A stretch of 64,000 bases of DNA. Source: Peredibacter starrii (lineage in GTDB: Bacteria > Bdellovibrionota > Bacteriovoracia > Bacteriovoracales > Bacteriovoracaceae). Position 1 is the first letter of the stretch. Every line of letters begins with the position of its first letter. The notes under the pieces are model-generated. The model was not told the origin of the DNA, made no database searches, and saw only the letters and a list, made by a program, of their open reading frames with translations. The stretch covers positions 1,054,001 through 1,118,000 of the forward strand of contig NZ_CP139487.1 of the NCBI RefSeq assembly GCF_034259205.1, written 5' to 3'. A program made the translations under genes and the position numbers. Of the stretch, positions 9,310 through 46,994 are shown piece after piece.

Positions 9310-9338
9310 TTGAGTTTGTATCCTGCGGGTGCTAAATT
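9310..9338 (+). promoter_or_regulatory. Predicted sigma-70-type promoter of the nuo operon
   Basis: TTGAGT (9310-9315), a 17-bp spacer and TAAATT (9333-9338) lie 31 bp before nuoA. A TTG start at 9310 would place the coding region over this promoter, which supports the downstream ATG at 9370 as the real nuoA start. Confidence 0.55.
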
Positions 9339-9369
9339 ATGGCCATTCATTTTTTCCCACAGGGTGCTT

Positions 9370-9759: not shown

Positions 9760-9769
9760 GAGCATATTT

Positions 9770-10968: not shown

Positions 10969-12167
10969 GTGATTTACTAGCTACAGAACAGAACGATCTG
11001 TATAACCCGAACGTTCTTATTAATATTGGTCCTGCTCACCCTGCAACTCACGGAACACTTCGTGTTATGTGTCGTATTAACGGTGAGACAATTGAAGATG
11101 CTAACTGTGAAATCGGTTACCTTCACCGTGGTATTGAAAAACTAGGTGAAGAGAAAACGTATCACCAGTGGATGGTTTATACTGACCGTCTTAACTACTG
11201 TTCAGCTCTTAACAACAACATCACTTATGCGATGACTGTTGAGAACCTTTTCAACATTTCAGTTACTGAACGTACGATGTGGATCCGTGTAATGTGCATG
11301 GAGCTTTCTCGTATTATCGACCACATCGTTTGTATCGCTGCAAACGCCCTGGATCTTGGTGCGATGACTGTGTTCTTCCACCTTATTCACTGGCGTGAAG
11401 AAGCCTACACAATGATTGAGTCAATGTGCGGTATGCGTCTGACGACTACTTATGCCCGTATCGGTGGTATGAGCTACGATCTTCCAGACAACTTCACTGA
11501 AAGACTTTGGAAATTCTGTGAAGACATTCCAAAGACGCTTGATGAAGTTGAAGGTCTTCTAAATGCTAACCGTATCTGGATCGACCGTACTAAAGATGTT
11601 GGCGTCATCAATAAAGTTGATGCTCTAAGATTGAACGTAACTGGTCCAACTCTTCGTGCTGCTGGTATCGACCACGATTTACGTCGTGACCGTCCTTACT
11701 ATGTATATCCAGAACTGGATTTCGATGTTGTTATCGGGTCTAAGGGTGACGTTTACGAGCGTTACCTGGTTCGTATGGAAGAAATCAGACAATCAGTTCG
11801 CATCCTTAAGCAATGTAATAAACGCATTCCAGCTGGTCCACTATGGGTAGACGACAAGCGCGTTCGTATCCCGGACAAGATGGATGTTTATACGAAGATG
11901 GAAGTACTAATCCACCACTTTAAGATTTTCATGGAAGGTATCGATGTACCGAAAGGTGAAGCATACACGGCCACAGAAGGTCCGAATGGTGAAGTTGGTT
12001 TCTACATCGTAAGCCGTGGCGGTCCTAAAGCTTGGCGTATGCGTGTGAAATCTCCATCGTTCATTCAGTTCCAGGCCTTTGAGAACACAATCAAAGGTGG
12101 ACGTATCCCGGATGCGATTGCTCACCTTGGTTCGGTGAACATCATCGCCGGCGAATTAGATCGTTAA
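10965..12167 (+). CDS. nuoD: Complex I subunit D (49-kDa homologue)
   Basis: NuoD forms the quinone pocket with NuoB and NuoH. The quinone-binding His is H29 in HPATHG and the Tyr is Y78 in TDRLNY, both at the spacing seen in the bovine subunit (H59/Y108). [22 protein letters not shown] and the C-terminal ELDR are family features. The length of 400 aa is normal. It is the reference for the degenerate NuoCD-like gene at 43.9 kb. Confidence 0.97.
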
Positions 12168-12182
12168 GAGAGAGACACACAT

Positions 12183-12710
12183 ATGGCACTATCAGAAAAA
12201 ATTAAAAACACGATCAACGGGATTCGACACCAGTTCCCGACTGAACAGGCCCTTCTTCTTCCAACACTTCACGAAGTACAAAACGAGAAGGGATGGGTAT
12301 CAATGGATAGCATGAGAGATATCGGGGAATTCCTGAATCTTCCTCTATCTAAAGTAAGAGAAGTGGCGAGCTTCTATACTATGTATAAGCTTGAGCCGCA
12401 GGGGAAAGTGGACGTACAAATCTGTACGAACATTTCTTGCTGGTTAAACGGTGCTGATAAGCTCGTTTCATGCGCTTCTAAAAAGCTTGGCATCCACGCT
12501 GGCGAAACAACTGCAGACGGTAAATTCACTCTTTCTCAAGTTGAGTGTCTTGCTGCTTGTGGAACAGCTCCGGCAATGATGATCAACGAAGACTACCACG
12601 AAAACCTTACTGAAGAGTCTCTCATTAAGATCCTTGATCAGGCCAAGTCTGACCTGGATGCAGGTAAAGTTGTTGGTAAAGACACACGTAAAGATGGAGT
12701 TTGGCCATGA
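12183..12710 (+). CDS. nuoE: Complex I subunit E, 2Fe-2S (N1a)
   Basis: A thioredoxin-like ferredoxin of the NADH module with cluster ligands in CTNISC (C-x4-C) and CLAACG (C-x3-C). An N-terminal helical bundle precedes it. The 175-residue length is typical. Its stop TGA lies inside the ATGATG start region of nuoF. Confidence 0.96.
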   Translation: MALSEKIKNTINGIRHQFPTEQALLLPTLHEVQNEKGWVSMDSMRDIGEFLNLPLSKVREVASFYTMYKLEPQGKVDVQICTNISCWLNGADKLVSCASKKLGIHAGETTADGKFTLSQVECLAACGTAPAMMINEDYHENLTEESLIKILDQAKSDLDAGKVVGKDTRKDGVWP

Positions 12711-14047
12711 TGTACAATAACGAACATTTCGAGCCGGTAATCACGCCAAACGTTGATAAGCCTAATTGCGAAACAATCGAATTCTATATTCAACACGAGA
12801 ACGGTTATAAGGCGCTTGAAAAAGCACTTAAAATGAAGCCGGCAGAAGTAGTAGACGAAGTTAAGAAGTCTAACCTTCGTGGTCGTGGCGGTGCGGGATT
12901 CCCAACTGGTATGAAGTGGTCTTTCATGCCTGCTAATCCAGTTGATGCTAACGGAAATCCAAAGCCGAAATACTTAGTATGTAACGCCGATGAAGGTGAG
13001 CCAGGTACTTTTAAAGACCGTCTTATCTTCACAAAAACTCCTCATAGAATGATTGAAGGTATGATCATCGCTGGTCACGCCATCTCTTCTAACAAGGGTT
13101 TCATTTATATCCGTGGAGAGTGGTTCAAAGAAGCTCGTCTTATGCAAAAAGCGATCGACGATGCTTACGCTAAGGGCTTCCTTGGTAAGAACATTCTTGG
13201 CTCGGGCTTCAATTATGATCTTGTGATCTATAAGGGTGCCGGCGCTTATATTTGCGGTGAAGAGACAGCTCTTCTAAACTCACTTGAAGGTAAGCGTGGT
13301 GAACCACGTCTTAAGCCTCCGTTCCCGGCGCAAGTTGGTGCTTACGGCATGCCTTCATGTGTAAACAACGTTGAAACTTTCGCAGCTGTTCCATACATCA
13401 TTGAGAAGGGCTGGGAAAAATACGCGAAGATGGGTACTGAGCGTTCAGGTGGTACACGTATGATCGGTGTTTCTGGTCACGTGAACAAGCCGGGCGTTTA
13501 TGAGCTTCCAATGAACCTTTCAATCAATGACATCATCGAAATCGCTGGTGGCATGAAGGGCGGGAAACTTAAAGCAGTAATCCCTGGTGGTGCTTCTGCT
13601 CCAATGCTTCGTGCAGACGAGTGTAACGTTCTTACTGATTACGATTCACTTGCGAAGGCCGGAACAATGGCCGGTTCAGGTGGTCTGATCGTTATGAACG
13701 ATACTGTGAACATCGTTGAAGCAACTTATACACTTTTAAAATTCTATGAACACGAATCGTGCGGTCAGTGTTCTCAGTGCCGTGAAGGTTCACACTGGTT
13801 GGCCCGTATGTTCAAACGAATCCTTGATGGCGGTGGTACTCAAGACGATCTTGATTACATTGCTAAAATCTGTGGAAACATGGCCGGTCAAACGATCTGT
13901 GCTTTCGCCGACGCTGTAACAGGTCCTGCTCTTTCATCTGTTCGTAAATTCCGTGAAGAATTCGAAGAGATGGTCATGAAGGGCGGTCTTAAAGGAATCG
14001 GTAGAACTGAATCCGTATCTCATAAAATGGTTGGTGCCCATGTCTAA
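12707..14047 (+). CDS. nuoF: Complex I subunit F, NADH/FMN binding, cluster N3
   Basis: NuoF oxidises NADH at FMN. The glycine-rich NADH/FMN site is NLRGRGGAGFPTGMKW, then CNADEGEPGTFKDR and GAYICGEETAL; the N3 cluster motif is ESCGQCSQCREG with a fourth Cys in GQTICAF. The ATG at 12707 is chosen over a TTG at 12701 because it overlaps the nuoE stop and has GGAG 7 bp upstream. It overlaps nuoG by 8 nt. Confidence 0.96.
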   Translation: MMYNNEHFEPVITPNVDKPNCETIEFYIQHENGYKALEKALKMKPAEVVDEVKKSNLRGRGGAGFPTGMKWSFMPANPVDANGNPKPKYLVCNADEGEPGTFKDRLIFTKTPHRMIEGMIIAGHAISSNKGFIYIRGEWFKEARLMQKAIDDAYAKGFLGKNILGSGFNYDLVIYKGAGAYICGEETALLNSLEGKRGEPRLKPPFPAQVGAYGMPSCVNNVETFAAVPYIIEKGWEKYAKMGTERSGGTRMIGVSGHVNKPGVYELPMNLSINDIIEIAGGMKGGKLKAVIPGGASAPMLRADECNVLTDYDSLAKAGTMAGSGGLIVMNDTVNIVEATYTLLKFYEHESCGQCSQCREGSHWLARMFKRILDGGGTQDDLDYIAKICGNMAGQTICAFADAVTGPALSSVRKFREEFEEMVMKGGLKGIGRTESVSHKMVGAHV

Positions 14048-15584
14048 TACAACTGAAATTGAAATCAAAAAACAGAAGATGGATCTGAACTACGCTTCTG
14101 ACAAGAAGCCGGTTCACTCTGATCCGTCTCCAGATGCTAAGCCTCTTCCAAAAGTAACTATCGATGGCAAACAGTATGAGTTCAAGCCAGGCGATACTAT
14201 TATGGAAGTAACTGAACGCTATAAAATTAACGAAGACATCCCTCGTTACTGCTACCACCCAGGTATGCCGGTTGCGGGTACATGTCGTATGTGTACAGTA
14301 GAAGTTGAAAAAGCTCCGAAGCTTATGACTTCTTGTTCAACTCCTGCCGCTGACGGCATGGTTGTTCACACTCGTTCTGAGAAAGTAATGAAGTCACGCA
14401 CAGGTGTGATGGACATGCTTCTTACGAATCACCCGCTTGATTGTCCGGTTTGTGATAAAGCAGGTGAGTGTAGCCTTCAGGACTACAACTTCGAGTACGG
14501 TCCATCGAAGTCAAACTTTAAAGAAGAAAAGCGCGTTTACGACAACGCTACAACGAAGAAACTTTCAGACAAAATCACGCTTAACATGAACCGTTGTGTT
14601 CACTGTGAGCGTTGTGTTCGTTTCACTGATGATGTGACGAAAACAAACGATCTGGTAATGGTTAACCGCGGCTGGCACAAAGAGCTTGAAGCAACAGATC
14701 CTGAAAAAGGTCTGACTAACGATTACCAAGGCTGTCTAACTGACTTCTGTCCGGTGGGCGCTCTTACAATGAATGATTTCCGCTTCCAGAAGCGTGCTTG
14801 GTTCCTTGATAAGAAAGCATCTATCTGTGACCGTTGTTCTAAGGGCTGTAACATTGAAGTTCATTCAGATAAAGACATCGTTTATCGTTACGTTCCAATT
14901 CACAATGAAATGGTTAACGGTCACTGGATGTGTGATGAAGGTCGTGTTTCATACAATGATCTTATGAACCCAATGAGAGTGATTTCTCCACTTCTTAACC
15001 ACAATAACTCTCTGACTTCTACTTCACTTGAAACTCTTCTTGGCGAAGTTAAGAAAGCAGTAGCAGCAGCTGGTTCAGTTCAAGTGGTTGTTGGTACAGA
15101 TGCTACTCGTGAAGAAGCTGCTCTTCTTAAAGAGAAGATGCCAGTTGTGTTCAACAAGTCTGTAGCGGTTGCTTACCACTCTGGATTTGTAACAACTTCA
15201 TCTGAAGATAAGAAAATCGATAACCTCCTTCGTATGGCGGACAAAACTCCAAATACGAAAGGTGTAGAAGAGCAAGGTCTTGCTCCTCTTGTTGGCGGTG
15301 AAGCTAACGCTGACCTTGTGATCCTTTTCAGAAACGGCCGCGCTGGTGTGCCTAAAATGAAAGCTGATCAGAAGCTAGTTCTATGGGGAGTTTGGAGCTT
15401 TGAAGATATCAAAGCACTTCCTTCTAAGAACATCGTTGGTGTGATCCCAGGTCTAGCTACGATTGAGAAGTCCGGCAGCTTTAAAAATGCTGACGGCATT
15501 GTACAGAAGTTCCACCCTGCTATCACCCACCGTGGTGGAGCTGTTTCAGCTCACCAAGTTGTTGGTGCATTGAAATCTAACTAA
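14040..15584 (+). CDS. nuoG: Complex I subunit G, short form with N7-type cluster motif
   Basis: NuoG carries several Fe-S clusters. Seen in order: a 2Fe-2S ferredoxin domain (CYHPGMPVAGTCRMC), the His/Cys N5 segment (HPLDCPVCDKAGECSLQDY), a 4Fe-4S set (RCVHCERCVRF with DFCPVGAL), then C-x2-C-x3-C-x27-C starting at CDRCSKGC, the spacing of cluster N7. The molybdopterin-oxidoreductase-like domain is much reduced: about 514 aa against 700-900 in many species. The start ATG at 14040 overlaps nuoF by 8 nt; the upstream TTG is less likely. Confidence 0.94.
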   Translation: MSNTTEIEIKKQKMDLNYASDKKPVHSDPSPDAKPLPKVTIDGKQYEFKPGDTIMEVTERYKINEDIPRYCYHPGMPVAGTCRMCTVEVEKAPKLMTSCSTPAADGMVVHTRSEKVMKSRTGVMDMLLTNHPLDCPVCDKAGECSLQDYNFEYGPSKSNFKEEKRVYDNATTKKLSDKITLNMNRCVHCERCVRFTDDVTKTNDLVMVNRGWHKELEATDPEKGLTNDYQGCLTDFCPVGALTMNDFRFQKRAWFLDKKASICDRCSKGCNIEVHSDKDIVYRYVPIHNEMVNGHWMCDEGRVSYNDLMNPMRVISPLLNHNNSLTSTSLETLLGEVKKAVAAAGSVQVVVGTDATREEAALLKEKMPVVFNKSVAVAYHSGFVTTSSEDKKIDNLLRMADKTPNTKGVEEQGLAPLVGGEANADLVILFRNGRAGVPKMKADQKLVLWGVWSFEDIKALPSKNIVGVIPGLATIEKSGSFKNADGIVQKFHPAITHRGGAVSAHQVVGALKSN

Positions 15585-15595
15585 GAGTTGGTGAT

Positions 15596-16663
15596 ATGGA
15601 ATATTTTGATTTTATTCAGCTGATTGCAAAAATTCTTTTCGTAGTTGCCGTGTGCTTGTCGGTAGTACCAGTAATGGTATGGTTTGAGCGCCGTGGTTCT
15701 GCATGGATGCAAGGTCGAGTAGGCCCTAACCGTGTTGGACCGTTTGGTCTTCTTCAACCGCTTGCTGACGTGTTCAAGTTCTTCTGTAAAGAAGACTTCA
15801 CTCCAGGTAACGCTAATAAATTTTACTACTACCTCGCTCCAATGGTTGCGTTGATTGCACCTCTATGTGCACTTGCAGTCATCCCATTCGGTAGCAAGGC
15901 CATCATTATGGGTCAGGAAGTTAACCTTCAAATTGGTAACTTCGATTCAGGTGTAATCTTCATTCTTGCTTTCGCAGGCCTTGAAGTTTACCCGCTGATT
16001 CTTGCTGGTTGGGCATCGAAGAACAAGTACTCAGTACTTGGTGCTCTTCGTGGTTCATCACAAATCGTTTCGTACGAGATCGCAATGGGTCTGGCACTTC
16101 TATCAATGATGGTGGTGTACGGATCATTTAATCCTCACGATATGGTTTCTTGGCAACAGAAGCACTACTGGGGAGCTTTAATCAACCCAATCGGTGCTCT
16201 TGTTTTCTGGATCTCGATCTTCGCAGAAACTAACCGTCTTCCTTTCGACTTACCTGAAGGTGAATCGGAAATCGTTGCTGGTTACCACCTTGAGTACGGT
16301 GCGATGAAATTCGCCCTGTTCTTCATGGCCGAGTACGTAGCGATGATTATGGCGTCTGCTCTCATCGCAACTCTGTTCTTCGGTGGATACGGAATCCTTC
16401 CGGGAATGAGCTTCGCGATCAATATGATTGTAGAACAATTCGGCTGGGGTGAAGTTGGTCTTCAAAACACGACTGCAGTGTTTGAGTTCCTGAGCTTCTT
16501 CACGAAAGTTGCTGTGTTCATGTTCATCTTCGTATGGGTACGTTGGACACTTCCACGTTTCCGTTTTGACCAGCTAATGGATTTGGGTTGGAAGATCCTT
16601 TTCCCGCTGTCACTTATTAACCTTGTGGCCGTCACTCTTGGCGTCTACTTTTTGAATCAATAG
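15596..16663 (+). CDS. nuoH: Complex I subunit H, membrane quinone-channel subunit
   Basis: A 355-residue multi-helix subunit linking quinone chemistry to the pumps. Signature segments are ERRGSAWMQGRVGPNRVGP and AETNRLPFDLPEGESEIVAG with its acidic loop. It follows nuoG after 11 bp and is intact by length. Confidence 0.97.
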   Translation: MEYFDFIQLIAKILFVVAVCLSVVPVMVWFERRGSAWMQGRVGPNRVGPFGLLQPLADVFKFFCKEDFTPGNANKFYYYLAPMVALIAPLCALAVIPFGSKAIIMGQEVNLQIGNFDSGVIFILAFAGLEVYPLILAGWASKNKYSVLGALRGSSQIVSYEIAMGLALLSMMVVYGSFNPHDMVSWQQKHYWGALINPIGALVFWISIFAETNRLPFDLPEGESEIVAGYHLEYGAMKFALFFMAEYVAMIMASALIATLFFGGYGILPGMSFAINMIVEQFGWGEVGLQNTTAVFEFLSFFTKVAVFMFIFVWVRWTLPRFRFDQLMDLGWKILFPLSLINLVAVTLGVYFLNQ

Positions 16664-16672
16664 GAGGGCTTT

Positions 16673-17194
16673 GTGGGAACTATCAATATTTCAAAGAAGT
16701 ACACCGCTAAAGAAAAAGCCTATATCCCGGCAATTCTTGTTGGTCTGAAAATCACAATGAAACACTTCATTAAGGGTTTCTTTTTCAGACATCACAATAC
16801 TGTTATGTATCCTGAAGTGAAGCGTGATTACTCTGATCGTTTCAGAGGTAAACACTTCATCTCGGTTGACGCTAATAAAACTGAAAACTGTACTGCTTGT
16901 TACCTTTGCGAAACTATCTGTCCAGCTGAGTGTATCCACATCGTGGCGGACGAGCGTGAAGAAGAGAACAACCCATACGGAGTGAAGAAAGAGAAGAAGC
17001 CAGTAAGCTTCGATATCGATGCTCTTCGTTGTTGTTTCTGTGGTTTCTGTGAAGAGGCCTGTCCAAAAGACGCGATCAAGCTTTCTGGAAACTATGAGAT
17101 GGCAGTATCTGCACGTCAGGACGCTATCTACGATCTTGATCTTCTTAAGCGTGATATGAACGGCAGAAAAGAAAAGACTGAGGTGAAGAAATGA
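16673..17194 (+). CDS. nuoI: Complex I subunit I, two 4Fe-4S clusters (N6a/N6b)
   Basis: An eight-Cys ferredoxin-like subunit. Motif 1 is C73-x2-C76-x2-C79-x3-C83-P; motif 2 is C120-x2-C123-x2-C126-x3-C130-P. The GTG start has a strong AGGAGGG site 4-5 bp upstream. The length of 173 aa is normal, and it overlaps nuoJ by 4 nt. This intact copy contrasts with the half-motif version at 45.5 kb. Confidence 0.97.
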   Translation: MGTINISKKYTAKEKAYIPAILVGLKITMKHFIKGFFFRHHNTVMYPEVKRDYSDRFRGKHFISVDANKTENCTACYLCETICPAECIHIVADEREEENNPYGVKKEKKPVSFDIDALRCCFCGFCEEACPKDAIKLSGNYEMAVSARQDAIYDLDLLKRDMNGRKEKTEVKK

Positions 17195-17715
17195 ATCCTA
17201 TCATCCTAGTGCTGGGAGTAATCTCAGCGATTCTAGCTGTTAACATGCTAATTGCTAAAAACCCGATCACATCTGCAATGAGCCTTCTTGGTATCCTTCT
17301 TATGTCGGCCGGTATCTACGCTATGATCGGCGAGCACTTCATCGCAACTATTCAGTTAGTTGTTTATGCCGGTGCGATCATGGTTCTTTTCATTTTCTCA
17401 ATCATGCTTCTTAACCTTTCTGATTCTGAAAGCGAGCTTAAGCGTAACCCTGGTATTTTCGCCGGTGCGGTTGCTCTAGGTCTTGGTCTTTTCGGTTTCA
17501 TTGGCTACGCCATCAACGAGCACTTCCTGAATCACCGTAATGATGTGATTCCTGGTCAGTTCACTCCGGACGTTATCAACCAACTTGGTGGTAACTCAAA
17601 AGTTATGGCCCACTCACTGTTCACTCAGTACTACGTTTCTTTCGAAGTGATCACTCTGGCACTTCTGGTTGCGGTAGTGGGTGCAGTAGTACTAGCAAAA
17701 AGAAAATTTGATTAG
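17191..17715 (+). CDS. nuoJ: Complex I subunit J
   Basis: A five-helix membrane subunit of 174 aa with the conserved IQLVVYAGAIMVLFIFSIML helix that contains the pi-bulge region of TM3. It overlaps nuoI by 4 nt (ATGA). Family length and order are standard. Confidence 0.96.
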   Translation: MNPIILVLGVISAILAVNMLIAKNPITSAMSLLGILLMSAGIYAMIGEHFIATIQLVVYAGAIMVLFIFSIMLLNLSDSESELKRNPGIFAGAVALGLGLFGFIGYAINEHFLNHRNDVIPGQFTPDVINQLGGNSKVMAHSLFTQYYVSFEVITLALLVAVVGAVVLAKRKFD

Positions 17716-17724
17716 GAACTTAAT

Positions 17725-18027
17725 ATGACAAACGAATTATACATTCAGCTTTTGGCCGCCTTCCTATTCACAATGGGTGTGCTAGTAGTTCTTCTTCGTC
17801 GTGACACTATTATGGTGCTTATGGGGATCGAGCTTCTTCTTAACGCTGCCAACTTATCACTGGTCGCTTTCTCGAAGACGAATTCAATGATTGATGGACA
17901 GCTTCAGGTGCTTTTCGTGATCGCACTTGCGGCGGCAGAATCAGCAGTTGGTCTTTCGATTCTGGTAAACCTTTACCGTAACTTCGGATCGATCAAAACT
18001 CAAAACGCAACAACTCTTAAAGGATAA
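17725..18027 (+). CDS. nuoK: Complex I subunit K
   Basis: A 100-residue three-helix subunit homologous to MrpC. The key membrane Glu residues are visible in MGIELLLNAANL and in the third helix (AAAESAVGLSIL). It has the expected length and overlaps the nuoL start by 1 nt. Confidence 0.96.
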   Translation: MTNELYIQLLAAFLFTMGVLVVLLRRDTIMVLMGIELLLNAANLSLVAFSKTNSMIDGQLQVLFVIALAAAESAVGLSILVNLYRNFGSIKTQNATTLKG

Positions 18028-20009
18028 TGAACGTGGAAACGATGAACTCCCTGCTACCACTTCTTATTTTAATCTCGCCTTTGATCGGTTTCATGATCAA
18101 TGGTGTGGTTCTCCCGCTAAAGCTTAAGGGCTTTGCTAAGACTGATCCAAATGTTGCCGGTGGTTTCGCCACTTTCTTCATTTTCTTGTCTTTCGTGATG
18201 GGCTGTATCGCTTTCTCACAACTGACTGGATCAACTTCTGAAAATCCTGCTGTTTATACTTACGTGTTCCAGTGGTTTGATTTCGGTGGTCTGAATATCC
18301 CTTTCGAACTTCGTATCGATAAGCTTTCAGGAATTCTGGTTCTGATCATCTCAGGTGTAGGAACTTTGATTCACCTTTACTCAACAAGCTATATGCACGA
18401 TGAAGAGTGTGTTGGTCGTTACTTCTCGTACCTGAACCTCTTCTGTTTCTGTATGTTACTTCTCGTTATGGGTAACAACCTTCCACTTCTTTTCTTCGGA
18501 TGGGAAGGTGTAGGTCTTTGTTCATATCTTCTGATCGGTTTCTGGTACACAGATACTGAAAAAGCGAACGCAGGTAAAAAAGCTTTCGTAGTTAACCGTG
18601 TAGGGGACCTTGGTTTCCTAATCGGTATGTTCCTTCTTTTCCGCGAACTAGGAACTCTATCTCTGACTGAAATCAATACGATGCTTGCTGATCCAACAGT
18701 TGTTGCTCGTATCATGCCTTCAGTGACTCTTATCTGTTTGGCCCTTTTCGTAGGTGCTACAGGTAAATCAGCCCAGATTCCTCTATATGTTTGGCTTCCA
18801 GATGCGATGAGCGGTCCGACTCCGGTTTCTGCTCTCATCCACGCTGCTACCATGGTAACTGCTGGCGTTTATATGATCGCTCGTCTGAACCCTCTGTTCG
18901 AGCTTTCTCCGGTTGCTCTTGAAGTCATCGCGCACGTTGGTGCTTTCACAGCGCTGTTCGCTGGCTCAATTGCCATCGCTCAGACCGACATCAAGAAGGT
19001 TCTTGCTTACTCAACTGTTTCTCAACTTGGTTTCATGTTCCTTGCTTGTGGTGTTGGTGCTTACCAAACTGCAGTATTCCACCTAATGACTCACGCTTTC
19101 TTTAAAGCGCTTCTGTTCCTAGGTTCTGGTTCAGTGATCCACGCTTGTTCTGGTGAACAAGATATGACGAAGATGGGCGGACTTAAGAAGTACTTACCTC
19201 ATACGCATTTCACAATGCTTATCGGGTCACTTGCTATCTCTGGTATTCCGTTCTTCTCAGGTTTCTTCTCAAAAGACGAAATCCTTTATTCTTCAATCGC
19301 ACTTCCTGGCGGCGTTTCGTACCTATTCCTTGTAGGTGTTCTAACAGCTGCTCTAACTGCGATTTATACAGGTCGTATGATGTCTCTTACTTTCTACAGT
19401 GAAGAGAGAATGTCTCATGATGTGAAACATCACCTTCATGAGTCACCAGCACTTATGACTTTCCCACTTTACGTTCTTGCCTTCCTTGCGGCGTTTGGTG
19501 GATTCCTTGGTGTTCCTCACTTACTAGGTGACTACCTTGGACACATGCCTCACTTCCTATCTCACTGGTTAGCTCCAGTGGTTCCAGCGAAGCACCTTCC
19601 TCTGGTTGGTGTGAAAATGCCTCTTCACGAGGGTGTAGTTATGGCCGGATCTTCAGTGATCGCCATCGCTTCATTCTTCGGTGGGGTAGCGCTGTTTAAA
19701 AAGATCACATTCATTTCTGATCTCGTAAGCGGTCTTGCTCCGGTTCAGAAACTTCTTTCTAACAAGTACTACATTGATGAGCTTTACGGCGTAATCGTTG
19801 TAAACCCAGTTAAGAAGATCTCAGCTTTCGCGGCCGGAATTGTTGATAAGTATGTTGTTGATGGTGCCGTTAACGGTCTAGGTCGCGGAGTTCGTGCAGT
19901 TGGCTCGACTCTTCGTGCGGTTCAGACTGGTGACCTTCAGACATACGGACTGATGATGCTAGGAGGAGTACTCCTGGTAGCGCTCTTCATTTTTAAAGTA
20001 CTGGTTTAA
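18027..20009 (+). CDS. nuoL: Complex I antiporter-like subunit L
   Basis: The distal Mrp-type pump subunit, 660 aa, with about 16 helices including the C-terminal lateral helix. Signature stretches are GWEGVGLCSYLLIGFWY (catalytic Glu), LPDAMSGPTPVSALIHAATM (key Lys/His region) and the FFSGFFSKDEI loop. The start ATG overlaps nuoK; in-frame alternatives a few codons downstream exist. Confidence 0.96.
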   Translation: MNVETMNSLLPLLILISPLIGFMINGVVLPLKLKGFAKTDPNVAGGFATFFIFLSFVMGCIAFSQLTGSTSENPAVYTYVFQWFDFGGLNIPFELRIDKLSGILVLIISGVGTLIHLYSTSYMHDEECVGRYFSYLNLFCFCMLLLVMGNNLPLLFFGWEGVGLCSYLLIGFWYTDTEKANAGKKAFVVNRVGDLGFLIGMFLLFRELGTLSLTEINTMLADPTVVARIMPSVTLICLALFVGATGKSAQIPLYVWLPDAMSGPTPVSALIHAATMVTAGVYMIARLNPLFELSPVALEVIAHVGAFTALFAGSIAIAQTDIKKVLAYSTVSQLGFMFLACGVGAYQTAVFHLMTHAFFKALLFLGSGSVIHACSGEQDMTKMGGLKKYLPHTHFTMLIGSLAISGIPFFSGFFSKDEILYSSIALPGGVSYLFLVGVLTAALTAIYTGRMMSLTFYSEERMSHDVKHHLHESPALMTFPLYVLAFLAAFGGFLGVPHLLGDYLGHMPHFLSHWLAPVVPAKHLPLVGVKMPLHEGVVMAGSSVIAIASFFGGVALFKKITFISDLVSGLAPVQKLLSNKYYIDELYGVIVVNPVKKISAFAAGIVDKYVVDGAVNGLGRGVRAVGSTLRAVQTGDLQTYGLMMLGGVLLVALFIFKVLV

Positions 20010-20020
20010 GGAATATTGAC

Positions 20021-21574
20021 ATGGAAAATTCTTGCTTACTTTCATGGATCATTTTTACGCCGCTTCTCTTCGCGTTCCTGGTAATGATTTTACCAAAGAG
20101 CATGGAGCATCTTTTTCGTAAGATCGCTTTAGTTCAAACGCTAGTAAGTGCGCTTATTGCTACTTATCTCTACTCTCGTTTCGATGGTGGAGTTGCTGGA
20201 GCTCAACTGACTCACCTGGTGCCTTGGCTTCCGGAGTGGGGGATTAACTATCTCGTTTCAATCGACGGTATCAGCCTTCCACTTGTAATGCTTACTGCAT
20301 TCGTTGGTCCGGTTGCTATCCTAGGAACTTGGCCTGATCTTTCTCACGGTGCTCAGCTTAAGAAAGAGAAGTTCTTCGTTATGTGTATCATGGCCCTTCA
20401 AACGGGTATGTACGGAACGTTCCTTTCAGCTGACCTCTTCTTGTTCTACTTCTTCTGGGAAGTGGTTCTAATCCCGATGTTCTTCATGATCGGTATTTGG
20501 GGTGGTAAAGATCGTATCTACGCAACTGTGAAGTTCTTCCTTTATACAATGGTGGGCTCACTTCTTATGCTTGTGGCGATCTTCTGGTTGATTAAGACGT
20601 CTGCTGAAGGCAATGGAACTCCATCTGCTGCTTACGAGACTCTTTCTGGCCTTAGTTTTGCTTTTGACGGTTCTTCTTTTGGTGCTGCACTTACTTCACC
20701 ACAAAGCTTACTGTTCCTTGCGTTCGCTCTTGCCTTCGTGATCAAGGTTCCAATGGTTCCTTTCCACACTTGGCTTCCGGATGCTCACGTACAAGCTCCA
20801 ACTGTTGGTTCAGTGTTCCTGGCCGCAGTTCTTCTTAAAATGGGTACATACGGTCTAATGCGTATCGCGATTCCGTTTTTTCCTCAAGCTGCCCACTACT
20901 TCTCGAGTGTGTTTATCGCTCTTGGTGTAATCGGCATCATCTATGGTGCTTTCTGTGCTCTCGCTCAGACAGACTTCAAGAAACTGGTTGCTTACTCTTC
21001 AGTTTCTCACATGGGTTACATCGTAGTTGGTCTTTTCTCTTTCCAGAAAATTGCAATTGCTGGTTCTCTTTACCAAATGATCAACCACGGTATTTCTGCC
21101 GGCGGTCTGTTCATGGTAGTAGGGTTCCTTTATGAAAGACTTCATACTCGTAACCTTGAAGACTTCGGTGGACTTGCGAAAGTTGTTCCTCTGATGGCGA
21201 TTGGTTTCATGATCATGACTCTTTCTTCAGTAGCACTTCCTGGTTCGAACGGTTTCGTTGGGGAGTTCCCAATTCTTCTTGGTGCTTTCCAGGTTCACCC
21301 GTTCTTCGTTCTATTCGCTGGAACTGGTGTAATTCTTGGTGCGGTTTACGCACTTAAGGCCTACCAGATGGTTATGCTTGGACCAAAAACTCGTACGGAT
21401 CTTGAACACCTTCACGATCTTAACTGCAGAGAAATTATCGCCATGGGCGTTCTGACAGTGTTCGTTTTCGGAATTGGTTTCTTCCCGAAAACTTTCTTCT
21501 GGAAATCAGACGCTGCCCTTGATGTTTACTCGAATACTCTTATTCAGAAAGTAGGTACATATGCTACTAAATGA
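20021..21574 (+). CDS. nuoM: Complex I antiporter-like subunit M
   Basis: The middle Mrp-type pump subunit, 517 aa, about 14 helices. FYFFWEVVLIPMFFMIGIWG holds the conserved Glu, and PFHTWLPDAHVQAPTVGSV is the broken-helix signature. It overlaps nuoN by 14 nt. Confidence 0.96.
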   Translation: MENSCLLSWIIFTPLLFAFLVMILPKSMEHLFRKIALVQTLVSALIATYLYSRFDGGVAGAQLTHLVPWLPEWGINYLVSIDGISLPLVMLTAFVGPVAILGTWPDLSHGAQLKKEKFFVMCIMALQTGMYGTFLSADLFLFYFFWEVVLIPMFFMIGIWGGKDRIYATVKFFLYTMVGSLLMLVAIFWLIKTSAEGNGTPSAAYETLSGLSFAFDGSSFGAALTSPQSLLFLAFALAFVIKVPMVPFHTWLPDAHVQAPTVGSVFLAAVLLKMGTYGLMRIAIPFFPQAAHYFSSVFIALGVIGIIYGAFCALAQTDFKKLVAYSSVSHMGYIVVGLFSFQKIAIAGSLYQMINHGISAGGLFMVVGFLYERLHTRNLEDFGGLAKVVPLMAIGFMIMTLSSVALPGSNGFVGEFPILLGAFQVHPFFVLFAGTGVILGAVYALKAYQMVMLGPKTRTDLEHLHDLNCREIIAMGVLTVFVFGIGFFPKTFFWKSDAALDVYSNTLIQKVGTYATK

Positions 21575-23039
21575 AGTTTTTCCTCTAAATCCACTTAGTG
21601 GTGTTGAGCTATTAAGCCTAACTCCGCTTTTCATCCTGGCAGTTGGCGCGATTTTGTCGCTAATTGTTGGTACCCATAAAGAGAAAGGTCACACTTTCGC
21701 TTTTGGTGTGGCGTTTGTATCTCTGGTTTCTTGCTTGTTCGTATACGCTTCGACAGCAACGATCTCAGACATTTCAATCCTTGGTGAAACTCTGATCTTT
21801 AACCCGTTCACAAAAACGATTGCAGCGATGGCCACTGGCTTTGCTTTGATCGCGGTTGTTCTGACTTACGGACAAGATAAGAAAGAAGGTCTTCTTTCTG
21901 AGATCTACGCTCTTATCCAGTTCTCGACAGCGGGTATGATCCTGATGATGTCGACTCAGCACCTTCTGTTCTTGTTCATCGCCCTTGAGATCATGTCTCT
22001 AGCGATCTACATCATGGTGGCAATGAGACGTTCAAGCCGCTTCTCAGCTGAAGCTGGTCTTAAATACTTCATCCTTGGTGGTCTAGCTTCTGCTTTCCTT
22101 CTTTATGGATCATCTCTTATCTTCGGAGCAACTGGTTCTTTCCAACTTGGTACGATCAACACGTTCCTTCTAGCTCATAACGAGCCATCGTTCATTTTCT
22201 ACGTTGGTCTTGGAATGGTACTAGTGGCGATGCTTTTCAAAGTTGGTGCGGTTCCTTTCCACGGATGGGTTCCTGACGTTTATCAAGGTGCTGCTACAAA
22301 CGTAACGGGCTTCATGGGTGCTGCAGTTAAGTTCACAGCTTTCATGGCCCTTGCTCGTATCTGCCAAAACCTAGTGTTCGTTGACAACATCGTGGCGCTA
22401 AAGTGGTTTGAAACAACAATCTACGTAATCGCCGCTGCTTCAATGATCTACGGTAACTTTGTTGCGATTTCTCAGAATGAAATTAAACGTATGCTTTCTT
22501 TCTCTACAATCGCTCACACTGGTTACCTTCTTCTTGGTCTATACGCGATGAAACTTGGTGAAGAGTCTGCTCAGTCGGTTCTTCTTTACTTGTTCTTCTA
22601 CGCTGTGGCGAACCTTGGTGCTTTCGCGGTTATTTCTCAATTCGAAGAGAAGAACCAGAAAGACCTTACTTTCGATCAGATTTCAGGCATGGGGGCAAAG
22701 CACCCGGTTCTAGGAACATTCTTCACGTTGTTCCTTCTTTCTATGGCCGGTATCCCACTTACTTCAGGTTTCATCGCGAAATACGGTCTATTCAGTTCAG
22801 CGGTTTACGCCGGAGAAATTCCTCTGGTTGTGATCGCGGTTCTAACGTCGGTAGTTTCGGTTTACTACTACCTACGCGTGATCGTTTATATGTTCATGAA
22901 AGATACAACTTCTGAAGCTGCTACTTACCAGGGTCTTAAAGGCGCTGGTTTGGCCGCTTTCTTATCAGCTGCTGCGACACTACAGTTCGGTCTTTTCCCA
23001 AGAGCGATTATTAGTTTCGTAAAAATGATTTCTAAGTAA
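21561..23039 (+). CDS. nuoN: Complex I antiporter-like subunit N
   Basis: The proximal Mrp-type pump subunit, 492 aa, about 14 helices. ALEIMSLAIYIMVAMRR and PFHGWVPDVYQGAATNVTGF are the family signatures. The N-terminus starts inside nuoM, and the gene is followed after 9 bp by the last small gene of the operon. Confidence 0.96.
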   Translation: MLLNEVFPLNPLSGVELLSLTPLFILAVGAILSLIVGTHKEKGHTFAFGVAFVSLVSCLFVYASTATISDISILGETLIFNPFTKTIAAMATGFALIAVVLTYGQDKKEGLLSEIYALIQFSTAGMILMMSTQHLLFLFIALEIMSLAIYIMVAMRRSSRFSAEAGLKYFILGGLASAFLLYGSSLIFGATGSFQLGTINTFLLAHNEPSFIFYVGLGMVLVAMLFKVGAVPFHGWVPDVYQGAATNVTGFMGAAVKFTAFMALARICQNLVFVDNIVALKWFETTIYVIAAASMIYGNFVAISQNEIKRMLSFSTIAHTGYLLLGLYAMKLGEESAQSVLLYLFFYAVANLGAFAVISQFEEKNQKDLTFDQISGMGAKHPVLGTFFTLFLLSMAGIPLTSGFIAKYGLFSSAVYAGEIPLVVIAVLTSVVSVYYYLRVIVYMFMKDTTSEAATYQGLKGAGLAAFLSAAATLQFGLFPRAIISFVKMISK

Positions 23040-42008: not shown

Positions 42009-43499
42009 ATGCTATTGAGATTATGTCAATTGAAAAGCCTGATTCTAATTGCATTCCTGCTCATTACAGTGAGCGCATGTTCTTGGCGTAAAGAACCTAA
42101 ACCAAGTTCAACCGAGCTGGTGTCGTTTTTTTCCAATAATTGGTTTAGCGTAAATCCAAATCATTCACTTGTCGGACAGAATGGAGAACCAGTGTCCCAC
42201 ATGATGTTCGATACCACTCCTGAATTTAATCAGAGTGAGCGCACGGTGAATGTTCTCATCGCTACTCCGCAAAGATCTGAACACGCTTATCAGTATGATT
42301 TAAATTCCGGTCAGCGCTTTTACTCTCACACTTACTGTAAACAAAAAGACATTTGGCACAAGCATGAGGGATCACTTCATCGTCCGCCTTTTGCCATTGG
42401 ATATATTCCAAGAGTTCTGGATCAATTAGGGGAACCGCAAAAGATCATCGTTTTCTCTAATCGCAGTAACTATGCTTCTGCAGTCGCTTATAACTATTTC
42501 AAAACGAAAATCGTCGGTGCTTACGTCGAACAAATTTGTCCGGAAGGAAATTGCATCGGAAAGAGCAATTGGCTCTCACGACTGGTTTTTATTGGAGTTG
42601 ATGAAGAAGACACATCCCTTGCTCCCATTAATACAGTCGCCGATTTCGCCCAGGTATTTAAGTGGGAGAGTGCTAAGGCCCACTTGGAAAACCTTGATGG
42701 CCTTAACTCCATTGGTGATGAACTCTACCCATCAATTCGAATTGGAAATTTAATTGAATACAATGAGGCCTTCGATTTCTTTAAGAAACGCTCTATCTTC
42801 CTGACTGACGTTGAGCTTAAAAAAATCCAGAAAGGTTGTTACGCTCTCTATGATTCTTTGTGGGACGATGTAGGAAAAGAGCGTCCGGAAGACAAGAGCG
42901 CGATGACCAAAGAAGAAATGAAGAGCAAAGTCAAACTCATTGAAGAAATGAAGAAGAAAAAACTCCCGATCGGTTTTGCTGCTCGTTTGGGTGTCTTCAC
43001 AAAAAAGTATTACAACGAAATTTCGACTTGCGAAAAGTTTGTTTATCACGGAAATATCAACCGAGATCGTGAGAAGTTTTGGTTCCTGAGTTACATGGGG
43101 ATTTACTTCCGTCTTCACCGTGAAGGCTACTTCTATGATTGTCGAAGTAAGACCTGGAAGCGCAACACTTTGAACGCTCAGGGCGAGCTGGTTTACGATC
43201 TAAAAGCAGAAATTGGGGAATGTAAGGACGCTGACATTGATCGCGCCATGGAATATCTGCCTAATTTCCTCTCCGGCATCAAAGGGGAGAAAGAATTCTA
43301 CAAATTTCTTGAGTACGATAATTATACTTTTGGGACCCACCAGAAGCTTTATTCCTGGGTGAGAGTTAAGGCCCGTCGCTTTGATTGTGGAAAAGATCCG
43401 AACATTGAAGTCAGAAAAGAAACTCGCGTTTTTCCGGAAGAGGTTTCGTGGAAAGTCCGCTATAACAAAGATACCTACGACGATAAGATTATTTACTAA
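42009..43499 (+). CDS. Lipoprotein of unknown function heading the NuoB/CD/I-like operon
   Basis: A 496-residue lipoprotein with a signal peptide and lipobox VSAC (Cys24). The mature part is rich in aromatic and charged residues and has seven or more scattered Cys but no CxxCH heme motif, known cofactor motif or repeat. I do not recognise the family. Its stop TAA overlaps the ATG of the NuoB-like gene by one base (TAATG), and the following genes are all tightly packed, so it is probably part of the same transcriptional unit. Confidence 0.7.
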   Translation: MLLRLCQLKSLILIAFLLITVSACSWRKEPKPSSTELVSFFSNNWFSVNPNHSLVGQNGEPVSHMMFDTTPEFNQSERTVNVLIATPQRSEHAYQYDLNSGQRFYSHTYCKQKDIWHKHEGSLHRPPFAIGYIPRVLDQLGEPQKIIVFSNRSNYASAVAYNYFKTKIVGAYVEQICPEGNCIGKSNWLSRLVFIGVDEEDTSLAPINTVADFAQVFKWESAKAHLENLDGLNSIGDELYPSIRIGNLIEYNEAFDFFKKRSIFLTDVELKKIQKGCYALYDSLWDDVGKERPEDKSAMTKEEMKSKVKLIEEMKKKKLPIGFAARLGVFTKKYYNEISTCEKFVYHGNINRDREKFWFLSYMGIYFRLHREGYFYDCRSKTWKRNTLNAQGELVYDLKAEIGECKDADIDRAMEYLPNFLSGIKGEKEFYKFLEYDNYTFGTHQKLYSWVRVKARRFDCGKDPNIEVRKETRVFPEEVSWKVRYNKDTYDDKIIY

Positions 43500-43891
43500 T
43501 GAAAGAAACAGCCAAAGTTTATAAAGTCTACCAACTCTCGAATCCTCTCATGAATACTGAGTGGCCGGCAGTTTTGGGTGATAAGTTTCATAAGGCCCTG
43601 TCATTTGAATGGGCCACAACCACCGATTTTAAAGAGGCCGACATTGTGGTTTGGGACGGAGTAATCAGTCCTAAATCGGCCGCACTTTTAAGTCCTCTCA
43701 TTGAAGAGCTAAAACAAAATAAAGTTTTACTCCTGGTGGGAGAATCAATGACCTCACTTCGAAATCACCCGATGGTTAAATTAGTATCAGCCGAAGGTCT
43801 TCGTTATGTGGAATTATCCGGATGGGGCGTTTTACCCGAAGAGGTTTTGGGCGCACTCGAGGCCTGTCACCAAAAGTTGACTCATGTTTAA
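43499..43891 (+). CDS. NuoB-like protein without cluster N2 ligands
   Basis: A 130-residue protein that aligns by eye with the central part of NuoB. ADIVVWDGVISPKSAALLSPLI matches [22 protein letters not shown] of the local NuoB, then VLLLVGES matches WVIAMGAC, and GWGVLPEEVLGAL matches [13 protein letters not shown]. The N-terminal CC pair is absent, the third ligand is S83 and the fourth is W109; the only Cys is C123 in the tail. It therefore cannot bind N2. It is 70 residues shorter than NuoB and overlaps the NuoCD-like gene by 8 nt. The homology call rests on manual alignment and gene order. Confidence 0.7.
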   Translation: MKETAKVYKVYQLSNPLMNTEWPAVLGDKFHKALSFEWATTTDFKEADIVVWDGVISPKSAALLSPLIEELKQNKVLLLVGESMTSLRNHPMVKLVSAEGLRYVELSGWGVLPEEVLGALEACHQKLTHV

Positions 43892-45518
43892 TTGGAAAGA
43901 ATTCGAAAAAACTAAGCAGGTCCTTTCTCACGTTGGCGGTCGCCGTTATCGTGATGATTGGGGACAACATCATTTGACAGTGAGACCAACTGAGCTGATT
44001 GATTGGATCGAGCTGATTAAAGAAGATTTGAATTATCTCACTCTCGCAGAAATCGCGGCGGTGGAAAATAATATCGATAAAGAGTATCGCTTTGAATTGG
44101 TGTATCACTTCCTTAACATGGGAACTCACCAACGACTCAATCTTCATCTTTTGGTGAATGAAGGCGAAATCATCCCTTCGGTGAAGAACTATTATCTTCA
44201 GGCGGACTGGATGGAACGAGAACAGGCAGAAATGCTGGGTCTTACTTTTGATCGTCCGACTCCGGCCCTTCTTTTGCCGGAAGGTCAAAAAAACTTCCCG
44301 CTTCGTAAAAAGAGCGAAGTGAAAACCTGGCCGGAAGAAAGACCCCTTGAATTTCCAAAACTACGCATGAATCCGAATAAATCGGAAGCTCCTTATCCGG
44401 AAGAAAGTTATCAGTGGAAACAGTTTGATATCTTCTCTCCAGTGAGCGCGGGTAACTTTGAATGGTCAGTCTGTTTTGATCCAGTCAAAGTCGTAGACAC
44501 TCGTCTTCGTGTGGGATTTCATCACCAGGGTCTGGAACTGTTCTTACAGAACAAAGACATTCTACAAGTGCTTCAGCTGGCAGATAAAATCAATATCAGT
44601 GCGGCCCCGAATTATTCAATCGCTTGGGCAAAGACCATTGAAGAGATGTTCCGAATTAAAATTCCAGAACGCGCTCAGGCCATTCGTATTGTGATGCTCG
44701 AGCTTGCTCGAATCGCTGATCACCTTACGGTGCTCGCGGAAATTTGCCGAAACGCCGGCCAGAGTGAATTCACTCTTTTCATCAATGCTCGAGAAAAGAT
44801 CAACGAGCTCTTTGAAAAGTTTTGTGGTCACAGACAAGGTCTTGGCATTGCTCGTATCGGGGGAGTGAAGGAAGATCTTCCTCACGGCTGGATTGTAGAG
44901 TATCAGGCAGTGGCAGAAATTCTTTCAAAGAATCTTCCTGTCATTCATAAATCGCTCATTGGTCAGAACAATTTCCGTTCTCACACCGATGGTGATCCGG
45001 TGAACGCTCAATCGGTGCTTCAATGGGGAGTTACTGGTCCCACTATGCGTGCGGCCGGATTAAACTTCGACCTTCGTAAATCGCAACCGTTTTATTTTTA
45101 TCAGGATATCGATTTTGATATTCCAGTTGGCATTCATGGGGCGATTTATGATCGCTACCTCATCCGTTACGAAGAGATTCATCAAAGTTTTCGCATTATC
45201 ACTCAGGTAATTGATAACCTTCCATTAGGTGATTTCATCAATGGTATGTATGATAAAAACTATGTTGAGTTGCTTAAGCTCTTCGAAGGTGCCGATGCTC
45301 CAACACAATGGCATTACGGCGCTTTGGAAACTTCGAATGGAGAAGCGGGCTTTTTGCTTAACTTCAATGGAACACCAAAACCTGCGCGTATAAAACTAAA
45401 GACTCCGAGCTTTGCTGTAGCACAAGCGCTACAGGTATTTGCCAAGGGACTTCGTGAAGATCAACTCGCAACTTGTTTGGCCAGCTTGAATCTTTCGCGT
45501 TGGGAAATGGATCGATAA
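43884..45518 (+). CDS. NuoC-NuoD fusion paralogue lacking the quinone-binding His and Tyr
   Basis: Residues 1-150 match NuoC: ADWMEREQAEMLGLTFDRP and FPLRKK stand for [15 protein letters not shown] and HPLRKE. Residues from about 185 match NuoD: GFHHQGLEL, AQAIRIVMLELARIADHL, GPTMRAAGLNFDLRKSQP and C-terminal EMDR. HPATHG, which carries the quinone-binding His, is replaced by SPVSAG, and the Tyr in TDRLNY is an Ile (ADKINI). There is no CxxC, so it is not a NiFe hydrogenase subunit. Length 544 aa. It overlaps the NuoB-like gene and lies 3 bp before the NuoI-like gene. Confidence 0.88.
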   Translation: MFNWKEFEKTKQVLSHVGGRRYRDDWGQHHLTVRPTELIDWIELIKEDLNYLTLAEIAAVENNIDKEYRFELVYHFLNMGTHQRLNLHLLVNEGEIIPSVKNYYLQADWMEREQAEMLGLTFDRPTPALLLPEGQKNFPLRKKSEVKTWPEERPLEFPKLRMNPNKSEAPYPEESYQWKQFDIFSPVSAGNFEWSVCFDPVKVVDTRLRVGFHHQGLELFLQNKDILQVLQLADKINISAAPNYSIAWAKTIEEMFRIKIPERAQAIRIVMLELARIADHLTVLAEICRNAGQSEFTLFINAREKINELFEKFCGHRQGLGIARIGGVKEDLPHGWIVEYQAVAEILSKNLPVIHKSLIGQNNFRSHTDGDPVNAQSVLQWGVTGPTMRAAGLNFDLRKSQPFYFYQDIDFDIPVGIHGAIYDRYLIRYEEIHQSFRIITQVIDNLPLGDFINGMYDKNYVELLKLFEGADAPTQWHYGALETSNGEAGFLLNFNGTPKPARIKLKTPSFAVAQALQVFAKGLREDQLATCLASLNLSRWEMDR

Positions 45519-45521
45519 ACT

Positions 45522-45899
45522 ATGATTCTAAATCGTAATTTTTATAGCAAAATTTCAGTTTTACGCGCGATGTGGAACAATCGCCAGGCCAAAAAATTGA
45601 CTGGAGAAAAGGTTTTTAAGGCCTTTAAACTGCATAAAACAGAGTGGCCTAATAAGCTTTATTTCTATTCGCCTCGTCTCAAAAGAATTCCTCGATTTAC
45701 TGGTAATTCCGCGCTCTTGGCCAACTGGAAAGAGTCTAAACTCTGTGAGACAATGTGCCCGACTCAAGCGATTAAAGTGACGGCATCCGCCTTCATAATT
45801 GATGATCGTGGATGTATAGCTTGCGGCCTATGTGTTGAACTAGCTCCTCCCGGAATACTAGAGATGACATCAGAACCTCCTCGTCTACATCAGTCTTGA
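45522..45899 (+). CDS. NuoI-like ferredoxin with one predicted 4Fe-4S cluster
   Basis: A 125-residue NuoI relative. The first Cys motif is reduced to C75-x3-C79-P: positions -6 and -3 are W69 and S72. The second is C98-x2-C101-x2-C104 with the fourth Cys replaced by A108. In two-cluster ferredoxins one cluster uses the first three Cys of motif 2 plus the CP Cys of motif 1, and that full set (C98, C101, C104, C79) is kept. The other cluster is lost. The N-terminal part up to residue 64 resembles the NuoI lead segment (EWPNKLYFYSPRLKR). It is followed by the desaturase after 12 bp. Confidence 0.85.
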   Translation: MILNRNFYSKISVLRAMWNNRQAKKLTGEKVFKAFKLHKTEWPNKLYFYSPRLKRIPRFTGNSALLANWKESKLCETMCPTQAIKVTASAFIIDDRGCIACGLCVELAPPGILEMTSEPPRLHQS

Positions 45900-45911: not shown

Positions 45912-46994
45912 ATGATCAAATTGATTTCAACGTTAGCACTGGCATACGGTGCCTCGTTCTTCTTCATTTCAAAAACAATCGGAGTTAATGGTTTCTTCGG
46001 TGATTTAATCGCCGCTCATCCATTCATCATCCTGAGTATTTATGCCTTAGTGGTTGCTCACGTAACAATCACCGCCATGAGTTTATCGTTTCACCGCTAT
46101 CACACTCACAAAGGCGTGATCATTAATAAGTGGGTCGATATGCCCATGCAGGTTTGGTTATGGATGGTGACGTCACTCTCTAAAGTTGATTGGGTATCAG
46201 TTCATATCTGGCACCACGCTCATTCAGATCAGGAAAAAGATCCGCATAGCCCGCTTCAAAAAGGTCTGGTTCACGCTCTATTCTTAGGAGTGTTTGATTA
46301 CACTCGTGCTAAGTCCTGGCCGGAAGTTATGAAGATCAAGAAAACGATTCCAACGAATAAACTGGAAAAGTTCATGTTCAATAATTCATTCACAGGTCCC
46401 ATCATTCTGACAGGACTTATGATGGTTATGTTCGGGCCACTTTGGGGTGGACTAGTATCAATCCTTAACTTCTTAGTTTCTCCGATCTTCGCGATTGGTG
46501 GAGTAAACGCTCTTGCTCACTGGTGGGGATACAGAAACCATGTAACAACGGATAACAGCCGTAACCTTGGTTTCCTTTTACCGCTTAACTTCATCATTTG
46601 TGGTGAGCTTGATCACAATAATCACCACGCTCACATGCGTTCGTGTTCATTCCGCCACCGTTGGTTTGAATTCGACATTGGTTTCTTCTATTTGAAGATG
46701 CTGAATAAGTTTAAACTGGCCGAACTTAAAAACGTTTATTCTCCGGCAACTCTTAAAGAAGAGTTCAGCCAGAAGTTTGCTGAATTGATTGAAAAAGATC
46801 ACCGCTTCAAAAAACGTTGTGAAGAACTAGCGGCGGAATTGAATCTTAACTATCAGGATTTAAAACTTAAAATCGAGGCCTACTGGCGCGGTGAAAAAGT
46901 AAAACTTGAAAAGTCAGTACGTGTGTTTATGCGTGAAGTTCGTCGTACTTATATGGCCAACCAACGTCTTAAACTGAGCTACGCTCACGCTTAA
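45912..46994 (+). CDS. Membrane fatty-acid (acyl-CoA-type) desaturase
   Basis: An integral membrane di-iron desaturase of 360 aa. The three His boxes are HRYHTH, HIWHHAHSD and HNNHHAH, with NALAHWWGYRNH supplying the extra His. Four hydrophobic helices surround them. Family members insert a double bond (commonly delta-9) using O2 and two electrons from ferredoxin, cytochrome b5 or a flavoprotein. A C-terminal extension of about 90 mostly helical, basic residues follows the catalytic core. It is the last gene of the NuoB/CD/I-like operon. Confidence 0.92.
   Translation: MIKLISTLALAYGASFFFISKTIGVNGFFGDLIAAHPFIILSIYALVVAHVTITAMSLSFHRYHTHKGVIINKWVDMPMQVWLWMVTSLSKVDWVSVHIWHHAHSDQEKDPHSPLQKGLVHALFLGVFDYTRAKSWPEVMKIKKTIPTNKLEKFMFNNSFTGPIILTGLMMVMFGPLWGGLVSILNFLVSPIFAIGGVNALAHWWGYRNHVTTDNSRNLGFLLPLNFIICGELDHNNHHAHMRSCSFRHRWFEFDIGFFYLKMLNKFKLAELKNVYSPATLKEEFSQKFAELIEKDHRFKKRCEELAAELNLNYQDLKLKIEAYWRGEKVKLEKSVRVFMREVRRTYMANQRLKLSYAHA

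Follow-up and report, generated by a model that had tools for sequence, protein, structure and literature searches.

A NuoCD-like fusion without the quinone-site residues of complex I, retained in a gene cluster of Peredibacter starrii and its relatives

Core residues of complex I are usually treated as indispensable. A 4.15-Mb single-contig genome of Peredibacter starrii, from which a stretch of 64,000 nucleotides was analysed here (the window), encodes a fused NuoC- and NuoD-like protein for which a preliminary description, made from the letters, proposed that the quinone-site His and Tyr are replaced. This raises the question of what such a protein is, where it comes from and what it may still do. 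The fusion gene stands third in a compact cluster, ordered lipoprotein, NuoB-like protein, fusion, NuoI-like ferredoxin and DesA-type desaturase, which contains neither genes for NuoE, NuoF or NuoG nor any for a membrane subunit. As had been pointed out, NuoC and NuoD remain separate in the true complex I of the same window. The features are listed below, with the evidence for each in brackets.

1829..8624, plus strand: nqrA-F and apbE-like genes, Na+-NQR, an alternative NADH entry (context)
9310..23039, plus strand: nuoA-nuoN of the local true complex I, nuoC and nuoD unfused, of a different lineage (context)
42009..43499, plus strand: lipoprotein, 496 aa, first in the cluster, 1 nt overlap with the next gene (fold, motif)
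43499..43891, plus strand: NuoB-like protein, 130 aa, with none of the four N2 cysteines, 8 nt overlap with the fusion (hhalign)
43884..45518, plus strand: NuoCD-like fusion, 544 aa, ATG start, quinone-site residues lost (intact ORF; Pfam, alignments, AlphaFold model)
44436..44453, plus strand: codons 185-190 of the fusion, SPVSAG in place of HPATHG/HPSAHG in the beta1-beta2 quinone loop (alignments)
44595..44597, plus strand: codon 238 of the fusion, Ile in the quinone-binding Tyr column (alignments)
45522..45899, plus strand: NuoI-like ferredoxin, 125 aa, one [4Fe-4S] cluster expected (hhalign, alignment)
45912..46994, plus strand: DesA-family fatty acid desaturase, 12 nt downstream (gene order)

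Pfam, NCBIfam and fold comparison all place a NuoC (30 kDa) and a NuoD (49 kDa) domain in the fusion. Complex1_30kDa covers residues 31-146 (1.4e-19) and Complex1_49kDa residues 294-544 (3.1e-56); the NCBIfam match, at 249 bits, lies below the equivalog cut-off of 360. AlphaFold gives a confident model (pLDDT 90.5), which superposes on E. coli NuoCD (7z7r_C) with E 2e-40 and a TM of 0.87 by query length. By sequence, the fusion has solved-structure relatives in complex I NuoCD, NuoD and NuoC, with weaker matches to related hydrogenase-type subunits. E. coli NuoCD (7z7r_C, 7awt_D) thus shares the whole-length fold and the fused C and D domains; in contrast, it has both quinone His and the Tyr, and its partners are an N2-carrying NuoB and a membrane arm.

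The His and Tyr columns were placed by three separate alignments, one to the structural chain 7awt_D and two with MAFFT, of 20 relatives and of 151 sequences. Against 7awt_D, S185 and A189 face the two His of HPSAHG and I238 faces the Tyr of TDRIEY, and the alignment is ungapped in these stretches. In the 151-sequence alignment, H25, H29, Y78 and D130 of the local NuoD correspond to S185, A189, I238 and N290, so that the conserved helix Asp of NuoD (local ALDLGA) is an Asn in the fusion. H29 in the local HPATHG and Y78 in TDRLNY were seen as described earlier, H25 being the first His of the loop motif; we take the second of the two His to be the equivalent of bovine H59. Neither the structural-chain nor the MAFFT alignments restored a His in the loop or a Tyr in the Y108 column. 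The described SPVSAG and Ile recurred at the same columns in all three, and a misalignment of these columns was therefore rejected. The segment GPTMRAAGLNFDLRKSQPFYFY and the C-terminal DR are retained, again as the preliminary description had it.

The loss extends throughout the genus. Both His and the Tyr are present in 64 of 64 NuoDs that have no linked lipoprotein and cover these columns (fragments L138 and L107_o2141 end short of them), versus 0 of 24 window-genus sequences, a contrast that is not due to chance; the 64 true NuoDs were filtered on the second His, which took out only two fragments ending short of the loop, a class member (L085) was excluded by name and one duplicate was removed. 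Within the genus, the second His column is occupied by A, M, L, R, D, S, Q, C, F or K.

The neighbours are reduced as well. The NuoB-like protein has no complex I family match in Pfam or NCBIfam, and its kinship was revealed by profile comparison alone, a five-member profile aligning with the NuoB profile at 96.7% probability (hhalign, E 4e-10). The ferredoxin profile aligns with that of NuoI at 98.7% (E 2e-16). It retains four of the eight cluster cysteines, one from the first motif (in CP) and the three of CxxCxxC from the second; the retained cluster is presumably the one next to N2, with N2 and the outer cluster gone (by the N2/N6a/N6b assignments). In three relatives (L060 9938-10249, L051 8298-8609 and L081 8744-9058), the NuoI-like gene gives way to one for a protein of some 103 aa that has two CxxC pairs and resembles a zinc ribbon or rubredoxin.

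The upstream lipoprotein carries a lipobox Cys and eight more invariant Cys. Its model (pLDDT 86.6) shows an inorganic pyrophosphatase fold over residues 63-267, on which all Foldseek matches listed agree, and it aligns with 2prd over 173 of the 174 residues of 2prd (VIA Z 17.6). The catalytic DxDPxD is lost, with LGEPQK opposite the DGDPLD of the genome's own pyrophosphatase, and the protein is therefore probably non-catalytic and, by its signal, periplasmic. A free-standing lipoprotein relative from outside the class (L210) retains DGDPVD. The lipoprotein is specific to the class, being found in 110 of 129 class genomes versus 1 of 239 other genomes of the phylum that were searched, and it stays even where the Nuo-like genes are gone. 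Its link with the Nuo-like genes consists of conserved gene order only; its signal would place it in the periplasm, and the module would be cytoplasmic, so that any direct link between them has to be viewed with caution. Upstream on the minus strand lie two adjacent lipoproteins built of repeated MFxxxxxLxxLDLSxFNT-type units (38475-41683), presumably BspA-like, and a long collagen-like Gly-x-y repeat protein (35848-37650).

The preliminary description had left two possibilities, a different origin from the local NuoD or an independent fusion event. A maximum-likelihood tree was built from 94 NuoD parts, with the trait columns left out; it omits five very degraded fusions (G048, G059, G060, G061, G022) and 13 of the 24 window-genus sequences. 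The window fusion falls in a single clade (100/100) that unites all 64 class fusions and has the fused NuoCDs from five genomes of Bdellovibrionaceae as its sister group (94/95). The local 14-gene NuoD falls in its own separate clade (100/100), and the NuoD2 of a second complex I of the genome elsewhere again. Derivation from the local NuoD was rejected on this placement, and the fusion is thus neither a copy of the local NuoD nor a new fusion. Of the two possibilities, the different origin stands and the new fusion falls, as the tree indicates that the fusion event predates the decay.

Common descent with complex I NuoCD is further supported by comparison with Bdellovibrionaceae (L086-L089, L105), which have the same fusion and form the clade nearest to the class fusions. 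Their loci share the order CD-E-F-G-I with intact members of the class, with B before CD in L087, L088 and L105, and the CD proteins of those intact members are 55-57% identical to theirs. In contrast to the window fusion, Bdellovibrionaceae NuoCD keeps HPxxHG, TDRLNY and NuoEFG, and no lipoprotein gene lies upstream. Fused NuoCD also occurs in 14-gene nuo operons of the local type (L196, L198 and L201); the fusion alone is therefore not diagnostic, and fusion or splitting must have changed more than once in the phylum.

The class Bacteriovoracia, which includes Halobacteriovorax (with Halobacteriovorax marinus, L085, as a member), was represented by 129 genomes that all share one family code; a match of some kind to the fusion, counting true NuoD, occurs in 124 of these. 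The lipoprotein/fusion locus was examined in 89 genomes. A CD-like ORF is present in 83 and absent in 6, one of which (G109) lacks it because the contig ends there; one of the 83 (G042) belongs to the local-type clade and was left out of the fusion counts. That genome carries a NuoB-CD-NuoI cluster without EFG and with all Q-site residues (L197), within the local-type NuoD clade.

Seven genomes are intact (G004, G008, G009, G010, G013, G065, G070). In these, HPATHG, TDRLNY and the Asp are present and NuoE and NuoF follow CD, as do NuoG and NuoI where the stretch extends far enough. All three intact loci checked (L065, L177, L183) have a separate second membrane arm besides that of the EFG-less complex, complete in L065 and truncated in L177 and L183, where the contig or the stretch ends. 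G057 has HPATQG, no EFG beside CD and a second membrane arm that is present but strongly diverged. G120-122 have HPITKG, with the Tyr and all NuoB and NuoI cysteines kept and EFG gone. Halobacteriovorax (G043, G044) keeps the NuoB and NuoI cysteines, with HPxxKG and a Phe for the Tyr, while G112 and G113 retain degraded NuoF and NuoG. In G043 and G024 the NuoH locus that was checked contains the other membrane set alone. In the window genus, the Q-site residues, the NuoB and NuoI cysteines and EFG are all lost or reduced.

The tree agrees with such a series: within the class-fusion clade the intact members are the earliest to diverge, followed by G057, next by G120-122 and finally by the remainder, although several rows are on long branches and the order among degraded groups is not fixed by the tree. 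Loss of the second His maps to a single change (64 rows), with G058 scored as lost despite a single aligned His because its loop, STWTKSTHLS, looks misaligned. The Tyr changed at least six times, the N2 cysteines seven times, EFG three times and the two-cluster NuoI five times. Co-loss statistics among N2, the NuoI clusters, EFG and DesA had too few independent pairs. At the far end, at least five genomes keep the lipoprotein where the NuoCD-like protein is gone or shrunk; in G018, G107, G110 and G111 (L066, L069, L070, L073) the lipoprotein stands alone at the same place, and in G022 (L067) CD measures 402 aa. The module is therefore dispensable in some lineages.

What could have relieved an ancestral complex I of its task? 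NqrA was found in 77 of the 129 class genomes, and NQR has been noted in Bacteriovorax marinus (PMC4014512). None of the seven intact genomes has NQR or a second 14-gene Nuo. Among the 75 genomes whose fusion lacks the second His, NQR occurs in 49, and NQR and/or a 14-gene Nuo in 72, the 14-gene Nuo of G093, G100 and G103 being supported by partial evidence only; the three that have neither (G084, G112, G122) are incomplete assemblies, as is G103. The intact form and these substitutes are thus exclusive in their distribution. The contrast gives a Fisher p of 3e-8, which rests on one tree change and is therefore not independent evidence of cause. The distribution fits displacement of the ancestral enzyme by NQR and/or a 14-gene Nuo.

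The fusion-clade tree, the intact early branches and the NQR/Nuo distribution together argue that the fusion represents the ancestral complex I of the clade, displaced and eroded. We consider it likely that what is now retained is a non-quinone module of B, CD and ferredoxin with one predicted [4Fe-4S] cluster. On this reading, the fusion would be a vertically inherited NuoCD, from the respiratory complex I that was ancestral to Bacteriovoracia. Na+-NQR and/or another 14-gene Nuo would have taken over NADH oxidation, and the displaced enzyme would then have lost its quinone site, membrane arm and NADH module. The NuoB-like protein, the fusion and the one-cluster ferredoxin may form a cytoplasmic trimer built like the Q-module of complex I. 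Such a trimer would neither reduce quinone nor pump. It may serve as a scaffold holding the single [4Fe-4S] cluster for redox sensing, regulation or local electron delivery.

The desaturase at the end of the cluster offers a more specific proposal, that the scaffolded one-cluster ferredoxin of the window genus passes electrons to the adjacent DesA for lipid desaturation. Ferredoxin-dependent DesA desaturases are established, and the gene adjoins the module in 20 of the 24 window-genus genomes, three being cut by the stretch end and one (G091) having no desaturase there. DesA also lies beside the module in G019, G024, G115, G117, G123, G124 and G125, and all six aligned ferredoxins carry the same four cysteines. 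However, most lineages with the module have no desaturase there, a different desaturase is found in G018 where the Nuo-like genes are absent, no electron source for the ferredoxin was identified and the co-occurrence comparison had too few independent pairs. We therefore regard this proposal as rather unlikely. In the G018 locus (L066 6704-9331), the other desaturase, presumably delta-9-like, directly follows the lipoprotein. A broader version appears similarly doubtful, in which a quinone-free, pump-free pseudoenzyme scaffold with one [4Fe-4S] cluster would feed, or sense for, a different process of the cell envelope (the neighbouring desaturase in the window genus) and be co-expressed with the non-catalytic pyrophosphatase-fold lipoprotein.

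Stepwise loss of residues, cysteines and genes, complete in some genomes, is also what would be seen if the genes were functionless and decaying neutrally. Against this, nearly all of the 83 genomes have an open CD-like frame of about 470-590 aa. The fusion is under purifying selection: dN/dS is 0.079, 0.064 and 0.063 in three window-genus pairs, and most intact pairs give 0.05-0.09, synonymous sites being near saturation in the wider pairs. Residues 376-450 have a mean conservation of 0.90 across the 24 species of the genus. A pseudogene was rejected on the dN/dS values and open frames, and a neutral remnant is improbable.

Where this constraint acts can be read from the 43 columns that are identical in all 64 true NuoDs. 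The window genus keeps 27 (a kept column being one retained in at least 23 of 24 sequences), loses 12 and is intermediate at four; 41 of the 43 persist in every one of the seven intact class members. The lost columns, in local NuoD numbering, are G22, P23, H25, H29, R75, Y78, A133, N202, R208, D262, G352 and G396. Most of these belong to GPxHPxxH, DRxxY, LGA and the NxxxxxR segment; the set further includes a D that follows a conserved G and the G that precedes the C-terminal ExDR. Retained columns lie in the structural core and in the segment at residues 376-450. A kept core with lost quinone motifs suggests that selection still maintains the fold, and may maintain an interface, but has released the quinone site.

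An oxidoreductase acting on quinone or another small molecule through a rebuilt active site, perhaps borrowing the membrane arm of another complex I, might be considered as the fold is intact, the C-terminal DR is retained along with some of the conserved Arg/Asp core, and two complete membrane arms are encoded elsewhere in the genome. The genome does have a second complex I, without NuoEFG, at two chromosomal places (A, H, J, K, L, M and N in L043, 3940-11608; B, C, D and I in L042, 6598-9353). Like the window module it has no NADH module; in contrast, it has a membrane arm, an intact NuoB and intact Q-site residues. However, the two full membrane arms lie with, or equal in number, other NuoB/C/D/I sets, so that each has its own B, C, D and I, although, judged by sequence, one of them may still pair physically with the module. 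Furthermore, His, His, Tyr and Asp are all lost from the fusion, its variable second His column gives no fixed new set in the genus, and the adjacent NuoB-like protein is devoid of N2 ligands. There is thus little chance that a rebuilt enzyme operates here. Another locus of the genome (L044, 1434-6866) encodes a DabA-like protein with two NuoL-type membrane proteins next in line; we take the DabA/DabB-like pair to be a DAB-like inorganic carbon system, here in a class with predatory members.

Finally, although group 4 hydrogenases have fused CD-like large subunits and HycE (7z0s_E) shares the fused C and D-like domains and overall fold (TM 0.85), a [NiFe]-hydrogenase-type large subunit (group 4 or Ehr-like) not descended from complex I is highly improbable and was rejected, since the fusion has four isolated cysteines and no CxxC, hence neither of the two Ni-Fe ligand CxxC motifs, an alignment of 20 close relatives has no Ni-Fe ligand cysteines, no hydrogenase gene set lies beside it, NuoD models far outscore hydrogenase models and the tree nests it with complex I NuoCD.

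We return to the displaced and eroded complex I as the reading that we favour. The module is a descendant of complex I that no longer has the defining features of complex I. Its catalytic residues are lost yet selection is maintained, and it therefore probably does a different job now. Judged from the sequences, it is most likely a scaffold carrying one [4Fe-4S] cluster. Among open-licence texts, our literature search found no account of a module of this kind. One survey of complex I variants in prokaryotes recognises a class of incomplete complex I, and the parts of it considered here mention neither loss of the Q-site nor the Bacteriovoracia clade (PMC12361115).

A single class thus holds a graded series, under constraint at all stages, that leads from the intact enzyme to a module without the quinone site, N2, one NuoI cluster, the NADH module and the membrane arm. 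The annotation 'NADH-quinone oxidoreductase subunit C/D' can consequently mislead on function in this class, Halobacteriovorax included. The order of loss, in which the second His of the quinone loop goes first and the rest later, amounts to a natural experiment in how individual residues of complex I are tied to particular functions, and the 27 retained invariant columns indicate what the fold needs without catalysis.
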